64,000 nt of DNA, taken from an uncultured Ruminococcus sp. GTDB lineage: Bacteria > Bacillota > Clostridia > Oscillospirales > Acutalibacteraceae. The stretch spans positions 1 to 64,000 of the forward strand of contig CADACB010000007.1 of NCBI GenBank assembly GCA_902786345.1, given 5' to 3'. Shown here in pieces: positions 14,725-60,941 of the stretch. The translations under genes and the position numbers were made by a program. The notes under the pieces were generated by a model that had not been told where the DNA came from, ran no database searches, and was given only the letters and a program-made list of their open reading frames with translations. Each line of letters starts with the position of its first letter. The first letter of the stretch is position 1.

Positions 14725-15336
14725 TTACACCATTTTCTTGAATAGGTTTCCGCCCAATCTATACATATCTCCGTCTGATTGATGACCTACACCGTTAAAG
14801 ATAAAATCCGCTTTATCTTCTTCAATTCCTCCGGCTACAAAGAAGTTATCATTGTAATCATAGGGTATATAATCTGTTTTCCTATCTCTACAAGAATTAT
14901 ATACTGCATAAATCAACCCGGTTTCAACCATATAGATATGGATTCCGTTCACCTCAATCTCGAAGTAAATTCTTCCCATATACCAATCATCATTTTTTAC
15001 ATAGTCAACATTGATTAAACGGTACTGATTAAATCCCATTCCCGCAGCTCTGATGTTATCTTTGCTTTCCATCTCGTGTAGTGCTTTCAGAATTTCGGGC
15101 TTCATTGTGGCAAAGTTTTCAAATATAGCCAGTTGCTTGTCAAGCTCTGTATCAAAGTATTTTGTACCCATACAGATATAAAGTCTTTCGCCGTTATTGA
15201 ATGTGACCGAATAATCAATGCAGCCTCTATATTTTCCTCTGCAAGCCTTACCCGTTCTTGTGCCAGTTTCCGCACCGAAACATTTTGCGAGTCTATCCAT
15301 TTTATCCTGTCTGATACTTGTTTTTGTTTGTTTCAT
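14725..15336 (-). CDS. 203-residue protein under a structured RNA leader
   Basis: The start at 15336 (MKQTKTSI) has GGGAGG upstream; a longer frame to 15363 is not supported. The N-terminus has RTGKACRGKYRGCIDYSVTF. The rest is alpha/beta with Tyr/Asp-rich loops. No family is recognised. Its leader holds copy A of the structured RNA (15359-15440) at the same spacing as copy B before the 16429 gene, suggesting shared post-transcriptional control. Confidence 0.6.
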   Translation of the reverse strand: MKQTKTSIRQDKMDRLAKCFGAETGTRTGKACRGKYRGCIDYSVTFNNGERLYICMGTKYFDTELDKQLAIFENFATMKPEILKALHEMESKDNIRAAGMGFNQYRLINVDYVKNDDWYMGRIYFEIEVNGIHIYMVETGLIYAVYNSCRDRKTDYIPYDYNDNFFVAGGIEEDKADFIFNGVGHQSDGDMYRLGGNLFKKMV

Positions 15337-15358
15337 ATTACTACCTCCCTGATTATAT

Positions 15359-15440
15359 AGCATATCAGATACTTTAGACTGTCTGATGTAGCCTTAACAG
15401 TCCCGGAAAATCCGGCGACTGCCTATCGGTCGTTTATGCT
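15359..15440 (-). ncRNA. structured leader RNA, copy A
   Basis: Minus-strand RNA closed by AGCAUA (15440-15435) with UAUGCU (15364-15359). Inside are GAUAGGC, a hairpin AGUC-(G)CCGG/CCGG-GACU, the unpaired string GUUAAGGCUAC, and a hairpin AUCAGA/UCUGAU with loop ending UCUAAAGUA. Copy B at 16772-16857 keeps the same layout and the same three single-stranded strings, with different stem bases. Both lie 9 bases before the ribosome site of the next gene, and both closing stems contain the upstream gene's TAA stop. It looks like a cis-regulatory RNA, but no known riboswitch class fits. Confidence 0.65.
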
Positions 15441-15664
15441 ATTATATTATAATTATCGTGTTGTGCTGTATGACTTTTCGCTGATTTAATTGCTTTGTTT
15501 CGTTCTTCCCTGATTCTGATTTCTTCCTTTTTTGCCGTTGCTTCTTCCAACTGCATTTTTAATTCTGCTCATATTTCTTCATTTCTTACATAGCATAAAG
15601 CCCTTGCAAGATTCAAACATCTATCCCAAGCCGCTTTATATTCCGGCGTAAACAATCGTTTCAT
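15434..15664 (-). pseudogene. small gene interrupted by one in-frame TGA
   Basis: From ATG 15664 (after GAGGGCGG) the frame reads MKRLFTPEYKAAWDRCLNLA and reaches TGA at 15571-15569 after 31 residues. It then stays open for 44 more codons of charged helical sequence (AELKMQLEEATAKKEEIRIR) to TAA at 15434. A single Trp-to-stop change (TGG to TGA) would explain it. TGA ends other genes here, so recoding is unlikely. The 31-residue peptide may still be made. Confidence 0.55.
15457..15478 (-). promoter_or_regulatory. leader motif GTCAGACAG-ACAACACG, copy 4
   Basis: The minus strand reads AAAAGTCATACAGCACAACA-CG inside the distal part of the broken small gene, about 17 bases before structured RNA copy A. 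Its presence within a reading frame argues that the nucleotide motif itself is kept. Confidence 0.45.
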
Positions 15665-15686
15665 ACTTACCGCCCTCTCTGTTTGT

Positions 15687-15739
15687 TATAGTAAATCATT
15701 TACTATAACAATTATAGCATACTGTTGTACACTTGTCAA
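15687..15739 (-). promoter_or_regulatory. promoter with perfect palindromic operator, copy 3
   Basis: TTGACA (15739-15734), 17-base spacer, TATAAT (15716-15711). Just past the -10 lies the longest version of the palindrome: TATAGTAAA (15687-15695) and TTTACTATA (15699-15707) around TCA. AAAATAATTTAGAA is found upstream of the promoter. Confidence 0.75.
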
Positions 15740-15768
15740 TAGCAGTTTCAGAATTTTTCTAAATTATT

Positions 15769-15957
15769 TTAATCCATTGTGTAATAATACGCTGTCATAT
15801 AATCTTTAAAGTATGCTCCCTGTCGCTGATAATACGGTTTTTCCTGCTCCGCCTGATATTCCGCCTTCGTCATCATTACCTCTTCTATATCCGTTCCGTG
15901 CTGATTTCCCCAGCTGTTCCGCACAAAGTAGTATTTTCTTTTCCTCTGATTTGCCAT
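15769..15957 (-). CDS. small basic protein, unknown
   Basis: 62 residues from MANQRKRKYYFVRNSWGNQH. The start at 15957 follows AAAGGATGG. Basic N-terminus, Tyr/Gln-rich end (KPYYQRQGAYFKDYMTAYYY). The upstream microprotein's stop is 15 bases before its start. No family is recognised. Confidence 0.55.
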   Translation of the reverse strand: MANQRKRKYYFVRNSWGNQHGTDIEEVMMTKAEYQAEQEKPYYQRQGAYFKDYMTAYYYTMD

Positions 15958-15971
15958 TGTAAACCATCCTT

Positions 15972-16031
15972 TCAGTCCCACAATTTTTTATAGATTACCG
16001 CCACAATAATAATTCCGATTATTAACTGCAT
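15972..16031 (-). CDS. 19-residue membrane microprotein
   Basis: ATG 16031 is preceded by GGAGGG at ideal spacing and encodes MQLIIGIIIVAVIYKKLWD, one membrane helix with a short basic end, then TGA. Its ribosome site is as good as any neighbour's, so it is probably translated. Small phage membrane peptides of this size can alter membrane enzymes; the target is unknown. Confidence 0.55.
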   Translation of the reverse strand: MQLIIGIIIVAVIYKKLWD

Positions 16032-16046
16032 TTTTATTCCCTCCAA

Positions 16047-16232
16047 TCAGCAAACAGTCATATTAAATGACCCTCTGTATATATCCCAGTTGATAATTTC
16101 ACAATCCAGCATATCAGATTCCGCTATTGTTTCCGTTGTTCCTGTGTATTCTTCGTCTGTGTTGATATTACATATTTCAACATCATAAATTCTGCCAGTT
16201 AGTAACGTTTCAAAAAATTCCTTTACTGTCAT
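16047..16232 (-). CDS. small acidic protein, paralogue of the 8369-8587 product
   Basis: 61 residues from MTVKEFFETLLTGRIYDVEI. It shares the N-terminal MTVxE, TGTTET-like and ESDMLDCEII-like segments with the 8369 gene product. It starts after AGGAGG. Both are acidic; no function is known. Confidence 0.6.
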   Translation of the reverse strand: MTVKEFFETLLTGRIYDVEICNINTDEEYTGTTETIAESDMLDCEIINWDIYRGSFNMTVC

Positions 16233-16235
16233 AAT

Positions 16236-16406
16236 TTATTCCACCTCCTGCCATCTTTCAAGTCGTTCAATCTCATCCGCTTCCATCTTGCCGAGTGCCG
16301 GGAATATGAAGTATAAAATATTCATTATCACATCGCCCATTGCAAGCAACAGACAAAATGCAGCGGGTAAAGCCATAACTACTATTAACATTCCAAGATT
16401 TTCCAT
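16236..16406 (-). CDS. small two-segment membrane protein
   Basis: 56 residues: MENLGMLIVVMALPAAFCLL then LAMGDVIMNILYFIFPAL form one or two membrane helices, followed by an acidic amphipathic tail (KMEADEIERLERWQEVE). The start at 16406 has GAGAGGAAG upstream. The stop is 4 bases from the next start. Possible small membrane effector. Confidence 0.6.
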   Translation of the reverse strand: MENLGMLIVVMALPAAFCLLLAMGDVIMNILYFIFPALGKMEADEIERLERWQEVE

Positions 16407-16428
16407 TGTTTATCTTCCTCTCTTTAGA

Positions 16429-16749
16429 TTAAAATTTGATATTTCTTTCCATACACCAATCTGATAGTGATTGTTTAGTCGGTACATTGTAATGATGTTT
16501 TCCTTCTACTAATACGCCCTTCCGATTGATATAATATTCCTGCAATACAACGCCGTAAAATGGATTTTTTTCAATAATATATATATGATAATATCCATTG
16601 TTAAACTGGGTACAAAATGCGCCTCCATATCTCCACCATTCGGCGGAAATTCCATTGTTTTCAGGTCTTGCTTGTTTAATTTCAGAAACAATTTTCCTGC
16701 CTCTCTCATCCACATTGATATAAACATTTGGAATTGCTTTTACTTTCAT
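16429..16749 (-). CDS. 106-residue protein under a structured RNA leader
   Basis: Starts after GGAGG with structured RNA copy B 9 bases farther upstream. Contains EWWRYGGAFCTQFNNGYYHI and YYINRKGVLVEG, a beta-rich look. No family is recognised. It shares no obvious similarity with the 14725 gene, so the common leader is not explained by simple gene duplication. Confidence 0.6.
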   Translation of the reverse strand: MKVKAIPNVYINVDERGRKIVSEIKQARPENNGISAEWWRYGGAFCTQFNNGYYHIYIIEKNPFYGVVLQEYYINRKGVLVEGKHHYNVPTKQSLSDWCMERNIKF

Positions 16750-16771
16750 TTTTTATCCTCCTTCATTGTTC

Positions 16772-16857
16772 AGCATACACGGTACTTTAGATTTCCGTTG
16801 TGTAGCTTTAACACTTCGGCAGATTCCTCCGCCGTTGTGCCTATCAGCTTTTATGCT
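16772..16857 (-). ncRNA. structured leader RNA, copy B
   Basis: Closed by AGCAUA (16857-16852) with UAUGCU (16777-16772). It has GAUAGGC, then a hairpin CAC-GGCGGA/UCUGCC-GUG, the unpaired string GUUAAAGCUAC, and a hairpin ACAC-CGG/CCGUGU with loop ending UCUAAAGUA. Stem sequences differ from copy A while pairing is kept, which is the covariation expected of a functional RNA. The TAA stop of the 16851 gene is part of the closing stem. Confidence 0.65.
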
Positions 16858-17893: not shown

Positions 17894-18391
17894 TTAACAC
17901 GCTGCTATTCTGACTCTACCTTGTGTCTTGATTTCCTCACTACCAAATTTTGACCGGATTTCATCAAGTGTGAATTTCTTTTTTGAGATTTTAGCGTCCT
18001 CCGGTCTGTGCCAGCTCCACGCTTTTTTCTTGCCGCACCACTTAAAACCGGCTGCCTTCAGAGATTCTTTACACTTGTATGTATCGCCTGTTACCCATAT
18101 CCACGTACCAATCAATTCAATGATGATACCGTCAAGCCCGATTATGCGGTTGATGATGTTCATAAACTCCTCCGGCGTTTCCGTTGTGGATTCTGCCGCC
18201 GTGTATGTTCTGCCGTCTGCCGTTGTATGAATGTTTTTCAGACGTTCAAAAAGCTCTGCATACTCGGCGTTGATTTCCTGCATATCAGATGTTCTGCCGC
18301 CTCTGTCCGGGTGATTGTTCATACATAGCACCCTGTACGCTCTTTTCAGCTCCTCCGCCGTTCTCGGTATGGGATTAAACCATTTTTTCAT
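17894..18391 (-). CDS. J-domain (DnaJ-like) protein
   Basis: 165 residues with an N-terminal J domain: TAEELKRAYRVLCMNNHPDR then GGRTSDMQEINAEYAELFER. HPD at about residues 27-29 is the catalytic tripeptide that stimulates Hsp70 ATPase. The C-terminal half contains GTWIWVTGDTYKCKESLKAA and KWCGKKKAWSWHRPED, a second small domain seen in phage and plasmid J proteins. The gene is first behind the promoter at 18423. A likely role is to redirect host DnaK, for example in replication or folding. Confidence 0.8.
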   Translation of the reverse strand: MKKWFNPIPRTAEELKRAYRVLCMNNHPDRGGRTSDMQEINAEYAELFERLKNIHTTADGRTYTAAESTTETPEEFMNIINRIIGLDGIIIELIGTWIWVTGDTYKCKESLKAAGFKWCGKKKAWSWHRPEDAKISKKKFTLDEIRSKFGSEEIKTQGRVRIAAC

Positions 18392-18422: not shown

Positions 18423-18451
18423 ATTATAACACACTGTTATCAGTATGTCAA
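18423..18451 (-). promoter_or_regulatory. consensus sigma-A promoter
   Basis: TTGACA (18451-18446), 17-base spacer, TATAAT (18428-18423). Upstream, TTTAGAA (18458-18464) and TTCTAAA (18469-18475) form a palindrome that contains the AATAATTTAGAA element found near several other promoters and at 23898. Confidence 0.75.
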
Positions 18452-18849: not shown

Positions 18850-18944
18850 AATAAAACCACCTTTAATTAATTTACAACTGGCAGCGGCTTTGAACGCTCC
18901 GCCCGGCTGCATTACAACCGCCCGGAGGCGGCTGTCATCTGCAT

Positions 18945-19265
18945 TTAGATAAACTCGATATTTGCATTGTTGGTAATTTCAACCATTACAGACTCCTGAT
19001 TGAGTGCTGATTTAATGCTATTGATTATTGCTTTATAGTCGATGTCGGTATCGCTTGCAATTTCAATTCTGATTGATTTTTCAAATACTATGTTGCCGGT
19101 TGACTGCATTTTATAGCAACCTTCACATTCAGTAATTGTAAAAGCGTATATCTCAAAGTCGTTGAGAAGGATATTTGCAAGTATGCTTTTTGCGGTGCTG
19201 GTTGTTACCTCTTGACACTCCGTATTTTTGTCGTTGAGTCCGACTGTTAATTTGTACTTTTTCAT
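18945..19265 (-). CDS. first early leftward gene, 106 residues, unknown
   Basis: Starts after GGAGG and is the first gene read from the repressor-facing promoter at 19318. The sequence is beta-rich with several ITEC/IEIA-type strands. No family is recognised. Being under the XRE operator, it is likely a lysis-lysogeny or immediate-early gene. Confidence 0.6.
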   Translation of the reverse strand: MKKYKLTVGLNDKNTECQEVTTSTAKSILANILLNDFEIYAFTITECEGCYKMQSTGNIVFEKSIRIEIASDTDIDYKAIINSIKSALNQESVMVEITNNANIEFI

Positions 19266-21114: not shown

Positions 21115-21954
21115 TCAGATTTCTGCTATTGCTTTTTCGTAAAGTTTTACGATTTTGTTTGCCGTGATTTGTGCTTTGTGCTTGCGGTATTCTGTCATAT
21201 TCTTGTATCGTCTTGTATCTATCTCTGTATCATTAAAATGTTTGATGAAGTTTTCTATTATACAATTTCCTACTGCTTTTATAAACCTTGCGACTCTCAT
21301 CATCTGTTCTGCATTCTGATACTTGCAGAGTCTGAATTCAATCGTATTGTTGTGCTGCAAATTTATGAAGTTTGTGTGATTCAGTGCATTTGAGTATCTG
21401 TCGATTTTATCTGCATAGTATGTAAAATCACGCCCCCAAAATGCCGCCGTTTTGTTTGATGTTTCCTGCATTTTTTCACAAAGCGGTACAAACAAACTAT
21501 GATAAAAGCGTCTCAGATAGTCCATAGTCTCACGGTTGATATATTCTCTATTGCCATAATGTGTATGTGTTCCGCAGTTATCACCAACTCTCAAATTGCC
21601 GTTTGTGATAAGTTTATCAAAAGTTGTAAAAGTCTTTGAGATACTATTCAAGCCATTGAATATAGGGCTTTTATATTCAACGTCAACCGTACAATCAGAA
21701 GTCGGAAGGAATTTAGCTGCTATAAATTCAGACCTTGCGGTTAAATCGCTGTATGATGTTTCAAACTCCCAGCCGAATGTATCGCCGGTGTTCTTGACTT
21801 TACCATGTCGCCTGTTGTTGTCGCTGTTATAGCCAGCCATACCGTGTGCGTGGAAGTCGCACATATAGGCGTTACGTCCGCCACGTCTTGCAAGTGGCAT
21901 CGCCACTGTTGCACACTGTCTGCATCCGGGAAAGTTACAAATAGGATTTTTCAT
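21115..21954 (-). CDS. phage amidoligase (glutamine-synthetase-like COOH-NH2 ligase)
   Basis: About 279 residues. An N-terminal CxxC-type segment (CNFPGCRQC, then CDFH) binds zinc. The catalytic part has GWEFET at about residues 60-65, a central CTVDVEYKSPIF, then GDNCGTHTHYGN and NTIEFRLCKYQNAEQMMRVA. These match the amidoligase family, which uses ATP to join carboxyl and amine groups, possibly modifying proteins or cell-wall peptides. The start at 21954 follows GAGG. It stands alone in the control region under the XRE operator at 22138. Confidence 0.75.
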   Translation of the reverse strand: MKNPICNFPGCRQCATVAMPLARRGGRNAYMCDFHAHGMAGYNSDNNRRHGKVKNTGDTFGWEFETSYSDLTARSEFIAAKFLPTSDCTVDVEYKSPIFNGLNSISKTFTTFDKLITNGNLRVGDNCGTHTHYGNREYINRETMDYLRRFYHSLFVPLCEKMQETSNKTAAFWGRDFTYYADKIDRYSNALNHTNFINLQHNNTIEFRLCKYQNAEQMMRVARFIKAVGNCIIENFIKHFNDTEIDTRRYKNMTEYRKHKAQITANKIVKLYEKAIAEI

Positions 21955-21998
21955 AGTTAATAACCTCACTTTATGTTAATTTTTGAAAATTTATTAAT

Positions 21999-24045: not shown

Positions 24046-25701
24046 TTGAAACAAACAAGCGTACACCAATTCATCTATAAGATAGAAAGCAAAATGCTAA
24101 AACAAGCAAATTGGCATTTGACACTCCCTTTGAAGGTTGCTATGGAACAATACCCGGAATTGATTGTGTCCTTAAATGAAAGTCAATGCCTAAGATTCAT
24201 AGATGAAATTAATGGTACTTCGGATAGAACGGCAAAAGTCCGCAGTATTCAAAAAACTATTAAACAAATTAAAAAATTACCTAAGAGCAGAGAGAATAAA
24301 AAGCTAATTGAAAATAACTATGAATACCTTTACAACTTGCAATTTCAAAAAGACTATATGTGTGTAATTATGAATTGTAAGTCTGATTACGATAGGGCAA
24401 ATTTAGGATTCACTATAAGTTTTGGTAACGGATGCACCATTAAATACAAAAGATTACTCGGTACAAATGGCGGTATTAAAAATTCGACAATAGTTTATGT
24501 CAACGAGAACATTTACGATGAATTAAAAAAGCGAATAGACAACGGTAGAAATAAATCAAAAGAGTTTGTTCCTGCTAAATTAGAAGCATATCAGGCTCTT
24601 GTGTGTAGCGGTTCTACTCCCCTACCTTTACCTAAAGGATTTATAGTAGTTAAAGATTGTATAACAAAATTTAAAGAAGATGTTTATCTTATTGATGATT
24701 CAGAGGATGGAGAACCAAAACTTACGTATGAAAATGATTATGAAATCGAACATAATGATTCTGACGGTTTCGGTTTAATGTTGCCATCCTATTCCCGAAA
24801 AATAAATGAATATCTAAATGGTAAATCAAATACTATCGCCGGAATAAATACTCGTTTTGCGTGGACTAAGGGAATGTTATATACATTCGACTTTATAGAG
24901 TTTGCGGAGAAAATCGCTAACAATTATGTCGTAACTGATGTATGGGGACAAAAGCGTGATGTTAGGGATGCAGAAGTTATACTCACAGAATCAATGCTGA
25001 AGCTCTGGGATAGTTATGATAGCTGGGAAGATTATTATGAAAACTGTAAGCAGAATCATTATCAATTTTCTTGTGCGAAAACTACACCGGAAGAATTGGA
25101 ATCTATTAGATTTACTAATTATCAATTCTTGCAAAGCTATGAATTTACGGATGATGAACTATATGAATTATGCAAACCAGCAATAGATGAAATTAAAGAT
25201 GTCATTGGATTTGATTATAGAAAGAGTTTGGCTTTTCTTGCAGGTTTTGGCTTAAATGATAAAAATGTATTTAAAGGCGATACTGAATCTTATGTTAAAG
25301 CATTGATGATTGAGCCAAAATTGATAGATGACCCATTTGTGCGAAGAAAAATTTATAATATGATTCGTACAAGAATAGAAATGGGAATGCGTGGAGCATT
25401 TTTGATTGATGCTAACTTTGCTATGATTTCTGGCGACCCTTATGCTTTGGCACAAAAAATATTTGGACTGGAAGTAACAGGATTATTAAAAAAAGGCGAA
25501 GTATATCATAAATATTGGTCTGATAAAGGCTCATTAGAAATTGTATGCTTTCGTGCGCCTATGACTTGTCATAATAATATACGTAAAATGAAATTAAATT
25601 GTAGTGATGAAATTAATTATTGGTATAAGTATATTGATTCAGTTCTTGTTTATAATGCTTGGGATTCAAGTTGTGAATCTATGAACGGAGCTGACAAGGA
25701 T
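24046..25701 (+). CDS. single-chain DNA-dependent RNA polymerase, exon 1 (YonO-like)
   Basis: 552 codons from TTG 24046 after GGAGGAGG. The product resembles the two-barrel polymerases of SPbeta YonO and crAss-like phages rather than T7. FRAPMTCHN near residue 503 matches the RxP segment of multisubunit enzymes. The exon ends MNGADKD at the catalytic loop, and the next two residues, GD, come from exon 2, giving D-K-D-G-D (residues 550-554), the magnesium-binding DxDGD motif. Splicing at U25701 is required: unspliced translation stops ten codons later. It probably transcribes the late genes. Confidence 0.8.
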
Positions 25702-26722
25702 AAACAAAACTGTCCTTGTAAAACTTGGTGAACTATTAAATAATAGGTGTCGCATTTGCGGCTAACGGTGGAACTCTAATTATTTATCGCATTGTATTTA
25801 GGCGGTGATAATTATTGGAAGAAAAATGGAAAGATATTGAAGGATATGAAGGATATTATCAAATAAGTAATTATGGGAATGTAAAATCACTTGATAGAAT
25901 TATACATCGTGCAGATGGGAAAGTATCTCATTTAAAATCAAAAATAAAGAAACAAACATATAATTCTGATGGATATTTAACAGTAAAATTATCTAAAAAT
26001 GGAATTGATGTAAGAATAGCAACACATATATTAGTAGCCAAAGCATTTGTTCAGGGATATTTTGATAAGGCAGAAATTAATCATATTGATTGTAATAGAA
26101 CAAATAATTGTGCGGATAACTTAGAATGGGTAACACATTATGATAACATTGCCTATTCGATAAAATGCGGAAATCATATAAGCGTTTATGCCGATTATTC
26201 AGGTAGTAATAATCCTAATTATGGCAATCATAAATTAAAAGAATTATATGCAAATAATAAAGATTTGGCAAAAGTTAAACAAGGTAGAGTAGGACAGCAG
26301 AACGGCAGGGCTATTCCTATTAAGATGATTTTAAAAAATGGCGAAGAAATAAAATTTTCCTATATTGGAGAATGTAGTAAATATATTATAAAAAATTCTT
26401 TGACAGATAATAAAAATATCAAAACACTTAATGATGTGATAGGTAAATGTTTAAAAAATAACACTACTTACAAAAATATAAGTTTCTCAAGATTATAATA
26501 ACTTTTTGATAAATAATTAGACAATACCGTGCCAAGCCATTATGGAAACATTTTGGAAGGTGTAACGACTATGGAATACGGGCTGTGTCATCTTGTGATA
26601 TGCCTATGAATCCAGTACATTTACGGTGAAATTCCGTAAGTGGAAGTGCCAAGCTATATAATAAAATATAGAAGAGATAGTCTATCCCCCTAATAAATAT
26701 CGGGCAACCGAGGGTATAAATG
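25702..26722 (+). mobile_element. group I intron in the RNA polymerase active-site codons
   Basis: Exon 1 ends ACAAGGAU, which pairs with the intron's GUCCUUGU (25712-25719) as an eight-base P1 ending in the required U-G wobble. The intron ends in G (26722). The downstream core has GUGUAACGACUAU (near 26560) and GAAGAGAUAGUCUAUCCCCC (near 26670), matching the two strands of P7 in phage group I introns such as those of Twort. An HNH gene sits in a peripheral loop. Removal restores the DxDGD frame exactly. Confidence 0.88.
25815..26498 (+). CDS. intron-encoded HNH homing endonuclease
   Basis: 227 residues from TTG 25815 after GGCGGTGAT. An N-terminal NUMOD4 motif (WKDIEGYEGYYQISNYGNVK) is followed by an HNH core (EINHIDCNRTNNCADNLEWV, residues 87-106). 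Such enzymes cut intronless alleles so that the intron is copied in. The C-terminal part (about 100-227) should recognise the target, here presumably the polymerase active-site codons, an ideal conserved site. Confidence 0.88.
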   Translation: MEEKWKDIEGYEGYYQISNYGNVKSLDRIIHRADGKVSHLKSKIKKQTYNSDGYLTVKLSKNGIDVRIATHILVAKAFVQGYFDKAEINHIDCNRTNNCADNLEWVTHYDNIAYSIKCGNHISVYADYSGSNNPNYGNHKLKELYANNKDLAKVKQGRVGQQNGRAIPIKMILKNGEEIKFSYIGECSKYIIKNSLTDNKNIKTLNDVIGKCLKNNTTYKNISFSRL

Positions 26723-29505: not shown

Positions 29506-30951
29506 ATGGCAAAGAAAAAATTAAAAAGTGACGGGATATATTTTACAGGGATGTCCTCCGAGGATGTCACGGGTTCGCAGTATTATATTAAATACGGCAA
29601 CAGTAAAATCCTCATTGAATGTGGACTTCATCAATCGGCAAGTAATGATTATCTTGATAGCTACAAAATTAATAATCAAAAGTATAAATTTAAACCTTCT
29701 GAATTAGATTATGTATTTATTGGACATTGCCATATTGACCATACTGGCAATATTGGCAGATTAGTCAAACAAGGATTTCGTGGAAGGATAATTACAACAA
29801 GCGAAACTGCTAAGATAATGAAACCATTGTTACTCAATTCAAGCATGATAGTTCAAAACGAGGCAAAGATTTTGTCACTAAAGTACAAGCGTAACTATTC
29901 CCCACTTTACACAGATGAGGATATTTATAACGCATTTGAGCTTATTGATACATACGATGGGTATAATACTATTTACACATTGAATGACAATGTTAGTTTC
30001 AGGTGGTTTAAAAATTCGCATTGTATCGGTGCTGTGCAATTACAGCTTATTCTCAAAGACGAGTATGGTAGAACAAAGAAAATACTATATACATCGGATA
30101 TTGGTGCATTACATACTAATAATCATTATGTGCCTGATACCGAGATTCCGCAATGTTATTCTGATGTTACCATTATGGAAAGCACATACGGAAATGAAAA
30201 ACGCAAAAATAATAAAACGAGAAGTTTTGACATAAATCATTTATGCACGGCGATTGATACAGTTGCCGATAGAAAAGGCACAATTATAATGCCTTGTTTT
30301 AGTTTTAGTAGAACGCAGGAAATTTTAACAACTTTGTATGATATGTACGGACACGAAGAAAACTTTGACATTCCAATTTATGTTGATTCTCAATTAAGTT
30401 GCGAAATATCAAAACTATATAATCATATTTTAACGGGTGAAAACTTAGAAAAATGGCAGAAGGTATGTAATTGGAGAAATGTCAAATTTATTGAGGATAA
30501 AGAAATTTCTAAATCAATTATAGCAAATAAATCCACAAAGATTGTTTTGTCATCTTCTGGGTTTTGTACAAACGGAAGAATTATTGGTTGGCTGCGAAAA
30601 TATATCGCAGATGAAAAATCAATGGTGGTTTTTAGTGGTTATGTTGGTGATAACCCATCCTATTTGTCTTATCGCATAAAAAATTATCGTGACCATAAGC
30701 AGATTAAGATTAATGGTGAAATGATAAATAATAAGGCTGATTGTATTTGTTTGTCAACTTTTAGTTCACACGCTGGATTTGATGATTTAGTAAAATACGG
30801 AAGTTCTCTAAATACGAATAAAGTTGTATTAGTACATGGTTCAAGAGATGCTAAGAGTTGTTTAGCAAAGAAAATGGCAGAAGCCGTTTCTAAAAATGAC
30901 AAAACTTATAAAATTGTAGAAAGTCATAAAGATATGATAATAAGATTATAA
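29506..30951 (+). CDS. beta-CASP metallo-beta-lactamase-fold nuclease (RNase J/CPSF-73 type)
   Basis: 481 residues. GHCHIDHTGN at about 73-82 is the HxHxDH metal site. HCIGAVQLQL, then YTSDIG further on, give later metallo-beta-lactamase motifs. FSFSRTQEIL and SSGFCTNGRI mark the beta-CASP insertion, and FSSHAGFDDL and LVHGSRDA match its final motifs. Such enzymes are RNA endo/5'-exonucleases or archaeal/eukaryotic mRNA 3'-end nucleases. The start at 29506 follows GAGG. It may process host or phage transcripts. Confidence 0.85.
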   Translation: MAKKKLKSDGIYFTGMSSEDVTGSQYYIKYGNSKILIECGLHQSASNDYLDSYKINNQKYKFKPSELDYVFIGHCHIDHTGNIGRLVKQGFRGRIITTSETAKIMKPLLLNSSMIVQNEAKILSLKYKRNYSPLYTDEDIYNAFELIDTYDGYNTIYTLNDNVSFRWFKNSHCIGAVQLQLILKDEYGRTKKILYTSDIGALHTNNHYVPDTEIPQCYSDVTIMESTYGNEKRKNNKTRSFDINHLCTAIDTVADRKGTIIMPCFSFSRTQEILTTLYDMYGHEENFDIPIYVDSQLSCEISKLYNHILTGENLEKWQKVCNWRNVKFIEDKEISKSIIANKSTKIVLSSSGFCTNGRIIGWLRKYIADEKSMVVFSGYVGDNPSYLSYRIKNYRDHKQIKINGEMINNKADCICLSTFSSHAGFDDLVKYGSSLNTNKVVLVHGSRDAKSCLAKKMAEAVSKNDKTYKIVESHKDMIIRL

Positions 30952-59156: not shown

Positions 59157-60941
59157 ATGGCAAGACTTACTTTACAAAGTGTCCCTTATTTCGATGGCGA
59201 ACGCACACGGCAAATATTTAATTATTCTTACGCAGGTATGGAGGTCGCTAAATCAACTTTAAAAATATATACAAGAATAAATAACAAACTTGTACTAACT
59301 TCCGAAGATACAGAAAATGTTCGAAAAGGGTTTCATAAGCTGAACCATTTACTTACGAATGGATACGAATACTACGCAGTTTTGTATGTATCATATTATG
59401 ATTCAAACAGAAATATAGTAGAAGAATCATCTCAAAGTAATGTTATTAGTTTTAAATGTATATCCACTCCCGTACTAACGTGCTCAAATATAACAGCCAA
59501 TCAAATAATAAACAAGTCAAGTTACACTTTTGAATTTAACTACAATCAGCAAAACTCCGAGTTACTATCCTCTTATATTATAACCTTGACAGATTCAACC
59601 GGACAGGAAATTTATAACAGCGAAGAAATTTCTTGTACGGACACGGCTATACCTACGGTTATAGAGCACACCATTTATAATCTTCCGGAAGGAACATTCA
59701 ATATAAGTTTCTTAGGAGAAACTGTAAATGGATTATCATTTACACAGAAATTCACGATAAAAGTACAGTACAAAACGCCGGTTAATTATAGTGTAATTTC
59801 AGCTCATAATCGTCCTGATACAAGACAAATTGAATTGTCTACCAATTATAAAATTATTACCGGGAAAATAAAGAATGGAGCAAACCCAATTTATATAGAT
59901 GAAAAGAAATTAGATTTAAGTAATAACGAACTAATATATGAAGGATTAGATGTAACAAATGATTTCACGGTTATATTTTCCTGCTCCAATATTGTGATAG
60001 GAAAAAATTCTTTAGTTTTAACTAATAATGATAATTTCTGTGTTACTGTCAAACCCTGCTATGAGGTATTGTATACAGAACAAAAGGGACTTAAAAATGT
60101 AAAAAGGTTTTATTTTCTTTTAGAAGTATTAAATAAAAATCTACAATATACCGATAAAACAAAATCAACTCATAGTTTGAAACAGGTTGTTATGAGCAAC
60201 GAAATTATTCCCGTTAATGTAACGGAAAACAACGGTCAAATAATCATTAATGATAATATGGTTATCAGTTTATTCGGCAGACAAGGGAGTTATTCTATTG
60301 AAGTTGTAGATGATGATCGTTTATTTAATATGGCAGGAAATATAAGTTTTAATGGAAATCAATATATTGATATAGATTACAAGCCAAACAATAATACGAG
60401 AATAGAAGTGGATTTTCTCAGACATACAACCAGCAATCAGGCGTTCGTTTTTGGATGTCGTACAGGAACAACCGATGCATTGGGGCTGGCTTGTGGAGCT
60501 GCCTCATCATTCCCGTTATTTGGAACAGCAAGGACAAGTGTCGGTAATGTTGTGTCTGTAGAAAATAAACATACGGTATCAATAAGTCAGAATGGATATT
60601 ATCTTGACAGCATTCTAATTAAAAGTTATGAAGCAATGACTTTTGAAACGCCAATCAATTTATATATTGGAGCGCTGAATCAAAATGGGACACCCGACAA
60701 TCGAATGTTTAATGGCGATGTATATGGAATAAGAATATACGAAAATAATATTCTTATACATAATTATATACCGGTTGTTTTTTCGGGGGGCATTTCTTCC
60801 GGACTGCTTGATATTGTGGATGATCAGTATTTTCCACAAAGAACTCTTCTAAAAACTATTTCTTTATCAAAGAATACATTTAATAATTCAAGTATTTCAT
60901 CTAATTTAATATATAAAGAAGGTGATGAAGATGTTATTTAA
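59157..60941 (+). CDS. tail fibre/baseplate protein with LamG-like domain
   Basis: 594 residues from ATG 59157 after GGTGGTGAT. It contains fibronectin-like beta repeats (residues about 100-310) and a C-terminal concanavalin/LamG-type domain: FNGNQYIDIDYKPNNNTRIE, then NRMFNGDVYGIRIYENNILI. Such domains bind sugars and suggest host-surface recognition. The stop overlaps the next start region by 11 bases. Confidence 0.7.
   Translation: MARLTLQSVPYFDGERTRQIFNYSYAGMEVAKSTLKIYTRINNKLVLTSEDTENVRKGFHKLNHLLTNGYEYYAVLYVSYYDSNRNIVEESSQSNVISFKCISTPVLTCSNITANQIINKSSYTFEFNYNQQNSELLSSYIITLTDSTGQEIYNSEEISCTDTAIPTVIEHTIYNLPEGTFNISFLGETVNGLSFTQKFTIKVQYKTPVNYSVISAHNRPDTRQIELSTNYKIITGKIKNGANPIYIDEKKLDLSNNELIYEGLDVTNDFTVIFSCSNIVIGKNSLVLTNNDNFCVTVKPCYEVLYTEQKGLKNVKRFYFLLEVLNKNLQYTDKTKSTHSLKQVVMSNEIIPVNVTENNGQIIINDNMVISLFGRQGSYSIEVVDDDRLFNMAGNISFNGNQYIDIDYKPNNNTRIEVDFLRHTTSNQAFVFGCRTGTTDALGLACGAASSFPLFGTARTSVGNVVSVENKHTVSISQNGYYLDSILIKSYEAMTFETPINLYIGALNQNGTPDNRMFNGDVYGIRIYENNILIHNYIPVVFSGGISSGLLDIVDDQYFPQRTLLKTISLSKNTFNNSSISSNLIYKEGDEDVI

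Follow-up and report, generated by a model that had tools for sequence, protein, structure and literature searches.

Two copies of a structured RNA lie at gene junctions of a phage-like region

The window, the whole stretch of 64,000 nucleotides that was analysed, belongs to a contig of 150,194 bases from an uncultured Ruminococcus sp. and carries two copies of a structured RNA on its minus strand. The region looks like a phage. Ten proteins of the window were compared with PHROGs; two had a named function, the others falling into families of unknown function or having no match. The genes and features that matter here are the following.

80-1237: DNA polymerase processivity factor (PHROGs)
14725..15336, minus strand: ORF of 203 aa that follows copy 1, with its ATG 22 nt beyond the RNA and without a family match
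15359..15440, minus strand: copy 1 of the twister-like RNA, 82 nt; covariance-model score 73.6 bits
15711..15739, minus strand: consensus promoter TTGACA-17-TATAAT upstream of copy 1; 12 of 12 matches, from a pattern scan only
16429..16749, minus strand: ORF of 106 aa that follows copy 2, with its ATG 22 nt beyond the RNA and without a family match
16772..16857, minus strand: copy 2 of the twister-like RNA, 86 nt; covariance-model score 79.9 bits
16851..17396, minus strand: ORF of 181 aa preceding copy 2, with a stop codon that reaches into the P5/L2 part of the RNA and ends at RNA +7
18423..18451, minus strand: consensus promoter TTGACA-17-TATAAT upstream of the genes leading to copy 2; 12 of 12 matches, from a pattern scan only
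18883..18943, minus strand: Rfam Twister-P5 ribozyme, 45.9 bits with cmscan (cut-off 37.6); predicted cut between U18914 and A18913
34545-36467: terminase large subunit (PHROGs)

The two downstream proteins had no Pfam or PHROG match at E<=0.001, that of copy 1 being tested as the longer frame 14725-15363. Between 14600 and 19700, no terminator-like site was found on the minus strand, where three promoter-like sites agree with the consensus at 11 or all 12 positions; as promoter-like sites totalled 20 compared to 18.3 in shuffled sequences, we gave weight only to the near-perfect ones. A long inverted repeat, TTATAGTAAA / TTTACTATAA (window 15682-15712), lies at the consensus promoter 15739-15711 and is possibly an operator. 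We also noted three further genes. At 17894-18391 (minus strand), adjoining a 12-of-12 promoter-like site, a DnaJ-like protein was found below threshold (23.1 bits, cut-off 27.8; PHROG 15863); a putative amidoligase is encoded in the phage gene module at 21115-21969 (minus strand; Pfam Amidoligase_2, 25.8 bits, cut-off 22); and a 561-aa protein at 24046-25731 (plus strand), perhaps a phage RNA polymerase, matches Pfam RdRP below threshold (18.7 bits, cut-off 23.8) and, strongly, PHROG 25339, of unknown function.

The initial annotation had described two copies of a leader RNA, and its coordinates for both proved correct. The closing stem AGCAUA/UAUGCU, the three conserved strings, the internal hairpins with compensated bases and the gap of 9 nt before the ribosome site were also found as described. 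It had further placed the TAA of the upstream gene inside the closing stem; this TAA does overlap the stem but straddles the end of its 5' strand, and it ends a long frame at copy 2 but only a 40-aa frame at copy 1. The pattern GATAGGCR-N{18,45}-GTTAARGCTAC matched the window exactly twice, with an average of 0.00 in 100 shuffles, and the folding of both copies beat 200 of 200 shuffles (z -3.43 and -3.87 for copies 1 and 2, respectively).

Homologues occur mostly in virus contigs

Six clear relatives, obtained by pattern scans of viral contigs and species genomes, were the material of a first model. The covariance models R1 and R2 were built from 8 sequences (alignment A3) and from 21 (alignment A5), respectively, and further pattern scans were added. 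The initial annotation had suggested such a search, and it did yield further homologues with covariation: the motif family comprises 33 confident copies in 17 records, including the genome of the window. This count corresponds to 35 matches minus two, one at 59195 of record G500 (26 bits), set apart from the family as a canonical twister near the cut-off, and one at 29561 of G507 (22.1 bits), rejected as its L4 fails to parse. Other matches were rejected as well, namely one in G405 with broken stems and no L4 strings (24.1 bits, E 0.06), one of 13.2 bits in G501 and a second-site match of 15.5 bits in G000. Four final patterns gave 99 distinct exact matches in the loci examined, 29 of which passed the structure filter.

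Virus contigs make up 14 of the 17 records, six of them of 108,596 to 166,766 bases and the rest of 4,194 to 68,235; two records from metagenome-assembled genomes (MAGs) bear the titles Ruminococcus flavefaciens and Paludibacteraceae. Copies tend to come in groups: a stretch of 3.8 kb of the Paludibacteraceae contig holds six, all in one module, record G504 has four, and G492 and G499 have three each. The strict pattern had no match in 98 other genomes near the host, and whole-genome surveys found it in 2 of 398 genomes of the phylum (the own genome and the rejected G405), in 1 of 391 of the class (the own genome) and in 1 of 395 of the phylum of G497 (G497 itself); these surveys, run with stricter filters under which weak matches are lost, added no accepted genome. 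A BLAST search of phage records with one copy returned two chance pieces only, and a pattern for one P2 subtype had zero matches in viral contigs. Two other RNAs were seen along the way: a SAM riboswitch at L210:356-440 (minus strand; 48.8 bits, cut-off 44.4) on the virus contig IMGVR_UViG_3300037249_000709 (166,766 bases), and a skipping-rope RNA at L214:7722-7801 (plus strand; 69.4 bits) on the Ruminococcus flavefaciens MAG contig, which carries one motif copy.

Covariation supports the fold and its pseudoknots

In the proposed fold, the closing stem would be P5, the GCU/AGC helix P2, the first hairpin a closed P1 and the second hairpin P4 with its loop L4, which would reach back to form T1 with L1 and T2 with L2. 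The parts of copy 1 are given below, 5' to 3'.

15440-15388, minus strand, 5' part and middle: P5 15440-15436; P2 15430-15428; G39/A40-like GA 15427-15426; T1 15425-15423; P1 hairpin about 15421-15398; UAA 15396-15394; P2' 15393-15391; T2 15389-15388
15387-15359, minus strand, 3' part: P4 15387-15382; L4 15381-15370; P4' 15369-15364; P5' 15363-15359

Across 21 copies, 94.5% of the pair cells of the six-helix model are paired. Shuffling the columns lowers this share to 63.8%, and sliding the partners lowers it to 39.5% or less. Two-sided changes occur in 21 of its 25 pairs (shuffle mean 16.7). Without the pseudoknots, 92.3% of cells are paired over the 35 matches compared to 51.4% in shuffles, a count made on the fitted alignment and including the two matches later rejected. 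Covariation is seen in the closing stem, the GCU/AGC helix and both hairpins. In the 21 copies, pairing of P5 reaches 92.3% of cells, the fourth P2 pair is missing in 11 copies, and 16 positions are conserved in at least 20.

The closing stem and two hairpins of the initial annotation are thus present, but as a fold they are incomplete, as two pseudoknots had been missed. In T1, the strand that follows GA in the internal loop forms three Watson-Crick pairs with the central part of the last loop; in T2, the two bases preceding P4 pair with the end of that loop. Both pseudoknots are paired in 33 of 33 copies, 8 of which came from patterns demanding complementary T1 and T2 letters, and for some other copies three earlier patterns fixed the T2 letters, one of them the T1 letters too. 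T1 takes the forms UAG/CUA, UGG/CCA and UGA/UCA (URG/CYA in most copies) and covaries at two of its three pairs, the second being GC in 21 copies and AU in 12, the third GC in 27 and AU in 6. The UGG/CCA and UGA/UCA forms were first met in copies from searches without that demand. T2 reads AC/GU in 31 copies, CC/GG in one and GC/GC in one, so that one position is AU, CG or GC (31, 1 and 1); both swaps came from the covariance-model search.

These results bear on another explanation of the two window copies, a chance duplication leaving a single local repeat without function. Two copies 1.4 kb apart in one genome, and a strict pattern that is absent from the 98 other genomes near the host, would suit it. 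It is already refuted by the covariation counts, and homologues with compensated stems occur in 16 other records, the Paludibacteraceae and Ruminococcus flavefaciens MAG contigs included; we give it no credence.

The motif resembles a twister ribozyme of type P5 that Rfam models miss

The initial annotation had called the RNA undescribed and could not match it to a known riboswitch. The RNA is structured, acts in cis as proposed there, and has homologues and strong covariation, but its likeness to twister had been overlooked: it shares topology, catalytic letters and both pseudoknots with that ribozyme. The helix order P1, P2, P4 with L1, L2 and L4 is present in the type P5 arrangement, one of the circularly permuted twister types P1, P3 and P5, and with Twister type P5 (RF02684) the motif shares this order, the closed P1, the open P5, a U-A step in L1, and T1 of three pairs and T2 of two between L4 and L1/L2. 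P5 is found in 1% of annotated twisters according to PMC6154101.

The likeness extends to single letters. In twister, G39 is the general base and A1 the general acid (PMC9901934), and noncanonical pairs A2-G39, A22-A40 and U18-A23 are reported (PMC7026644); PMC5408937 describes a T1 of three pairs plus an A-A pair, a conserved A that follows the scissile base, a U-A trans pair, and an A-G pair located between P2 and T1. The motif has equivalents of the catalytic A and G and the same GA/UAA, A.A and U.A partner letters. Letters equivalent to A1, A2, G39, A40, A22 and A23 are present in all 21 copies, not being imposed by the parse, and the U18 equivalent in 20, with a C in the remaining one. 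Those equivalent to the two catalytic bases are kept in 33 of 33 copies, for which the parse demanded GA, UAA and AAG. The letters for the A2.G39 and A22.A40 contacts occur in 21 of 21 copies and those for U18.A23 in 20, the contacts themselves being predicted.

Other twister features are altered. According to PMC5408937, the T2 of twister is GC/GC, with a conserved GC in L2, and P4 is extended by an essentially invariant G-C pair. In the motif, the GC/GC letters of T2 are absent in 32 of 33 copies, T2 usually being AC/GU, and none of the 33 keeps the G-C pair that extends P4: one position is A in 30 copies and G in 3, the position opposite is A in 32 and G in 1. Beside this purine-purine position, L4 has two extra bases on its 5' side in all 33 copies. 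The motif also departs from Twister type P5 by its paired P5 stem, by the fourth P2 pair that about half of the aligned copies do not form, and by lying below Rfam detection. As the GC/GC T2 and the P4-extending G-C pair fail, we do not class it as Rfam Twister-P5.

The Rfam comparison, also suggested initially, gave no match of the motif above the cut-off of any family. At E<=10, the Rfam twister models matched neither window copy and none of the four copies of locus L327, and Twister-P5 over 14 virus records listed a single motif copy. Two sequences nonetheless bridge towards Twister-P5. That single copy, a family member in G505 with a CC/GG T2, scores 31.5 bits with Twister-P5 (cut-off 37.6; E 4e-6), the match spanning nt 9-51 only, that is P2, L1 and P1, with L4 outside. 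Conversely, the Twister-P5 match in G500 (37.2 bits, cut-off 37.6) scores 26.0 and 23.9 bits with the R1 and R2 models, at E about 0.001. We also observed in record G497 a Twister-P5 above the Rfam cut-off (L215:11129-11187, minus strand; 52.2 bits) whose T2 is GU/AC; T2 swaps therefore occur in twisters that Rfam does detect.

Down to E<=10, the other Rfam overlaps with the motif were below cut-off and at chance level, SNORD60 on the opposite strand of copy 1 (E 7.3) and the Avashort thermometer at one L327 copy (E 4.8). The pistol model RF02679 had no match at motif copies in the window or loci. Readings as a permuted pistol, hatchet or hammerhead were dropped, as the loop letters that we take these ribozymes to have misfit the motif. 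A search for missing twister permutations is reported in PMC10085705 as giving no promising candidates, and among the matches listed for the open-licence literature on twister variants and phage ribozymes we recognised no earlier account of the variant.

Taken as sequence evidence, these data make it very probable that the motif is a divergent type-P5 twister-like ribozyme, predicted to cleave itself, that Rfam models miss. It would be a new twister variant that most likely works like a twister. The altered T2 and P4-extending pair could lower or abolish activity, and one may ask whether the fold derives from twister and has lost catalysis, serving as a protector of mRNA 5' ends, a translation-coupling switch or a decoy. 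Replacement of the P4-extending pair in every copy favours such a loss, but the equivalents of both the catalytic adenine and the catalytic guanine are kept throughout, for which a non-catalytic element has no obvious reason.

The motif shares a gene-junction slot with known ribozymes

We also looked at the position of the copies relative to genes. An ATG preceded by a Shine-Dalgarno (SD)-like string lies at most 55 nt downstream of 28 of the 33 copies, compared to 15% of 6,600 random positions, and is missing within that distance in 5; the SD test is permissive, hence the random-position control. An upstream stop codon lies near the start of the RNA in 27 copies (26 with a stricter stop rule) compared to 9% of random positions, and both junction features come together in 22 of 33 compared to 2.6% of the 6,600. 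The stop codon often falls inside or beside the P5/L2 part of the fold.

Known ribozymes, twister-P5, pistol or both, are present in 9 of the 17 motif records. Twister-P5 is above cut-off in 7 of them and just below in an eighth. Ten records were searched whole for pistol and 3 of these have it, with none in the fetched regions of the other seven. The 282,873 bases around the motif hold 6 twister-P5 and 5 pistol ribozymes; 11 unrelated viral loci, chosen among chance hits of the patterns and totalling 148,629 bases, contained nothing that Rfam matched. Twister-P5 was found in 2 of 299 genomes of the phylum, the own genome included. These ribozymes occupy the same slot: an ATG with an SD-like string lies 18-43 nt downstream of all 13 that were checked (7 twister-P5, 1 just below cut-off and 5 pistol), the pistol at G495:60307, outside the fetched region, being left out. 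The Twister-P5 of the window belongs to the same gene module as the two copies, 2 kb away from copy 2, and likewise lies between a stop codon and a ribosome site; it is flanked by an S-adenosylmethionine-lyase-like gene with a weak match (18945-19265; 26.9 bits, cut-off 28) and by the next ORF. PMC10085705 reports bacterial ribozymes as enriched near other ribozymes and near phage genes.

The proteins encoded downstream are mostly unrelated. Clustering by blastp (E<=0.01) placed 31 of them in 27 clusters, 2 of the 33 copies being omitted for want of a protein of at least 40 aa. Of the 4 pairs that were joined, only 2 are convincing; no gene class thus accompanies the RNA. This matters for the possibility that the motif is a cis-regulator binding a ligand or protein, a riboswitch or autoregulatory leader on an unrelated fold, as its usual place just upstream of ribosome sites, its 16 strongly held positions and its failure to reach any Rfam cut-off might suggest. 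A metabolite riboswitch would go with a constant functional class of downstream gene, and no such class was seen; the mostly unrelated downstream genes and the arrays of copies, as in the module with six, therefore disfavour a ligand-type regulator. Moreover, the conserved letters and both pseudoknots coincide with twister, and known ribozymes hold the same slot at neighbouring junctions. We regard a regulator of this kind as very improbable.

The slot also bears on loss of catalysis. Frequent overlap with the stop codon would suit a ribosome-sensitive structure, but pistol, another ribozyme fold, shares the slot, which argues for cleavage as the common property; a fold without catalysis appears very improbable to us. 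The preferred reading thus remains a twister-like ribozyme predicted to cut itself.

Predicted cleavage and its meaning for phage transcripts

Such an RNA most likely folds during transcription and then would cut itself between U and A, T1 and T2 bringing both the guanine of L1 and the GU(U^A)A adenine to the bond that would be cut. From the alignment, and from what PMC5408937 and PMC9901934 describe for twister, the equivalents of its U-A site are predicted as follows.

15396/15395, minus strand: predicted cleavage site of copy 1, between U15396 and A15395 (GUU^AAGG)
16810/16809, minus strand: predicted cleavage site of copy 2, between U16810 and A16809 (GUU^AAAG)

The predicted cuts lie 59 and 60 nt before the next start codon in the two window copies. 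The product would be a downstream mRNA with a 5'-OH, starting AA(A/G)GC... and retaining P4 and the ribosome site. A likely use would be the splitting of polycistronic phage transcripts at gene junctions into single-gene pieces, a task likely shared with canonical twister-P5 and pistol at other junctions, although pistol (RF02679), found in the same phage modules, belongs to a different family and is an analogue by position only.

Related arrangements are described for other ribozymes. In prophage hammerhead arrays, several ribozymes also flank single genes of inconstant identity, and they were proposed to cut long phage transcripts into operon- or gene-length mRNAs (PMC3088659); they are of another class, and cleavage is shown for hammerheads in that paper and predicted for our motif. 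The theta ribozymes of gut phages are likewise small, with a proposed role in RNA processing, but are HDV-like and often lie beside tRNAs (PMC10879173).

As the stop codon often overlaps the fold, coupling of the motif to upstream translation is possible. We tentatively put forward a more specific scheme, which we consider rather unlikely as it stands: some phages would place one of several ribozyme classes (twister-P5, pistol or the present variant) exactly between a stop codon and the next ribosome site, and a terminating ribosome would hold the variant open, so that cutting would start only when upstream translation falls, a translation-gated mRNA processing.

In conclusion, the motif offers a natural set that keeps the catalytic letters, re-pairs T2 and drops the P4-extending G-C pair, and thus natural double-pseudoknot variants to test. 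It also suggests that current twister models under-count. Moreover, the motif sits where twister-P5 and pistol do in the same phage modules, after a stop codon and ahead of the next ribosome site, and this placement makes the role of bacterial self-cleaving ribozymes directly testable.
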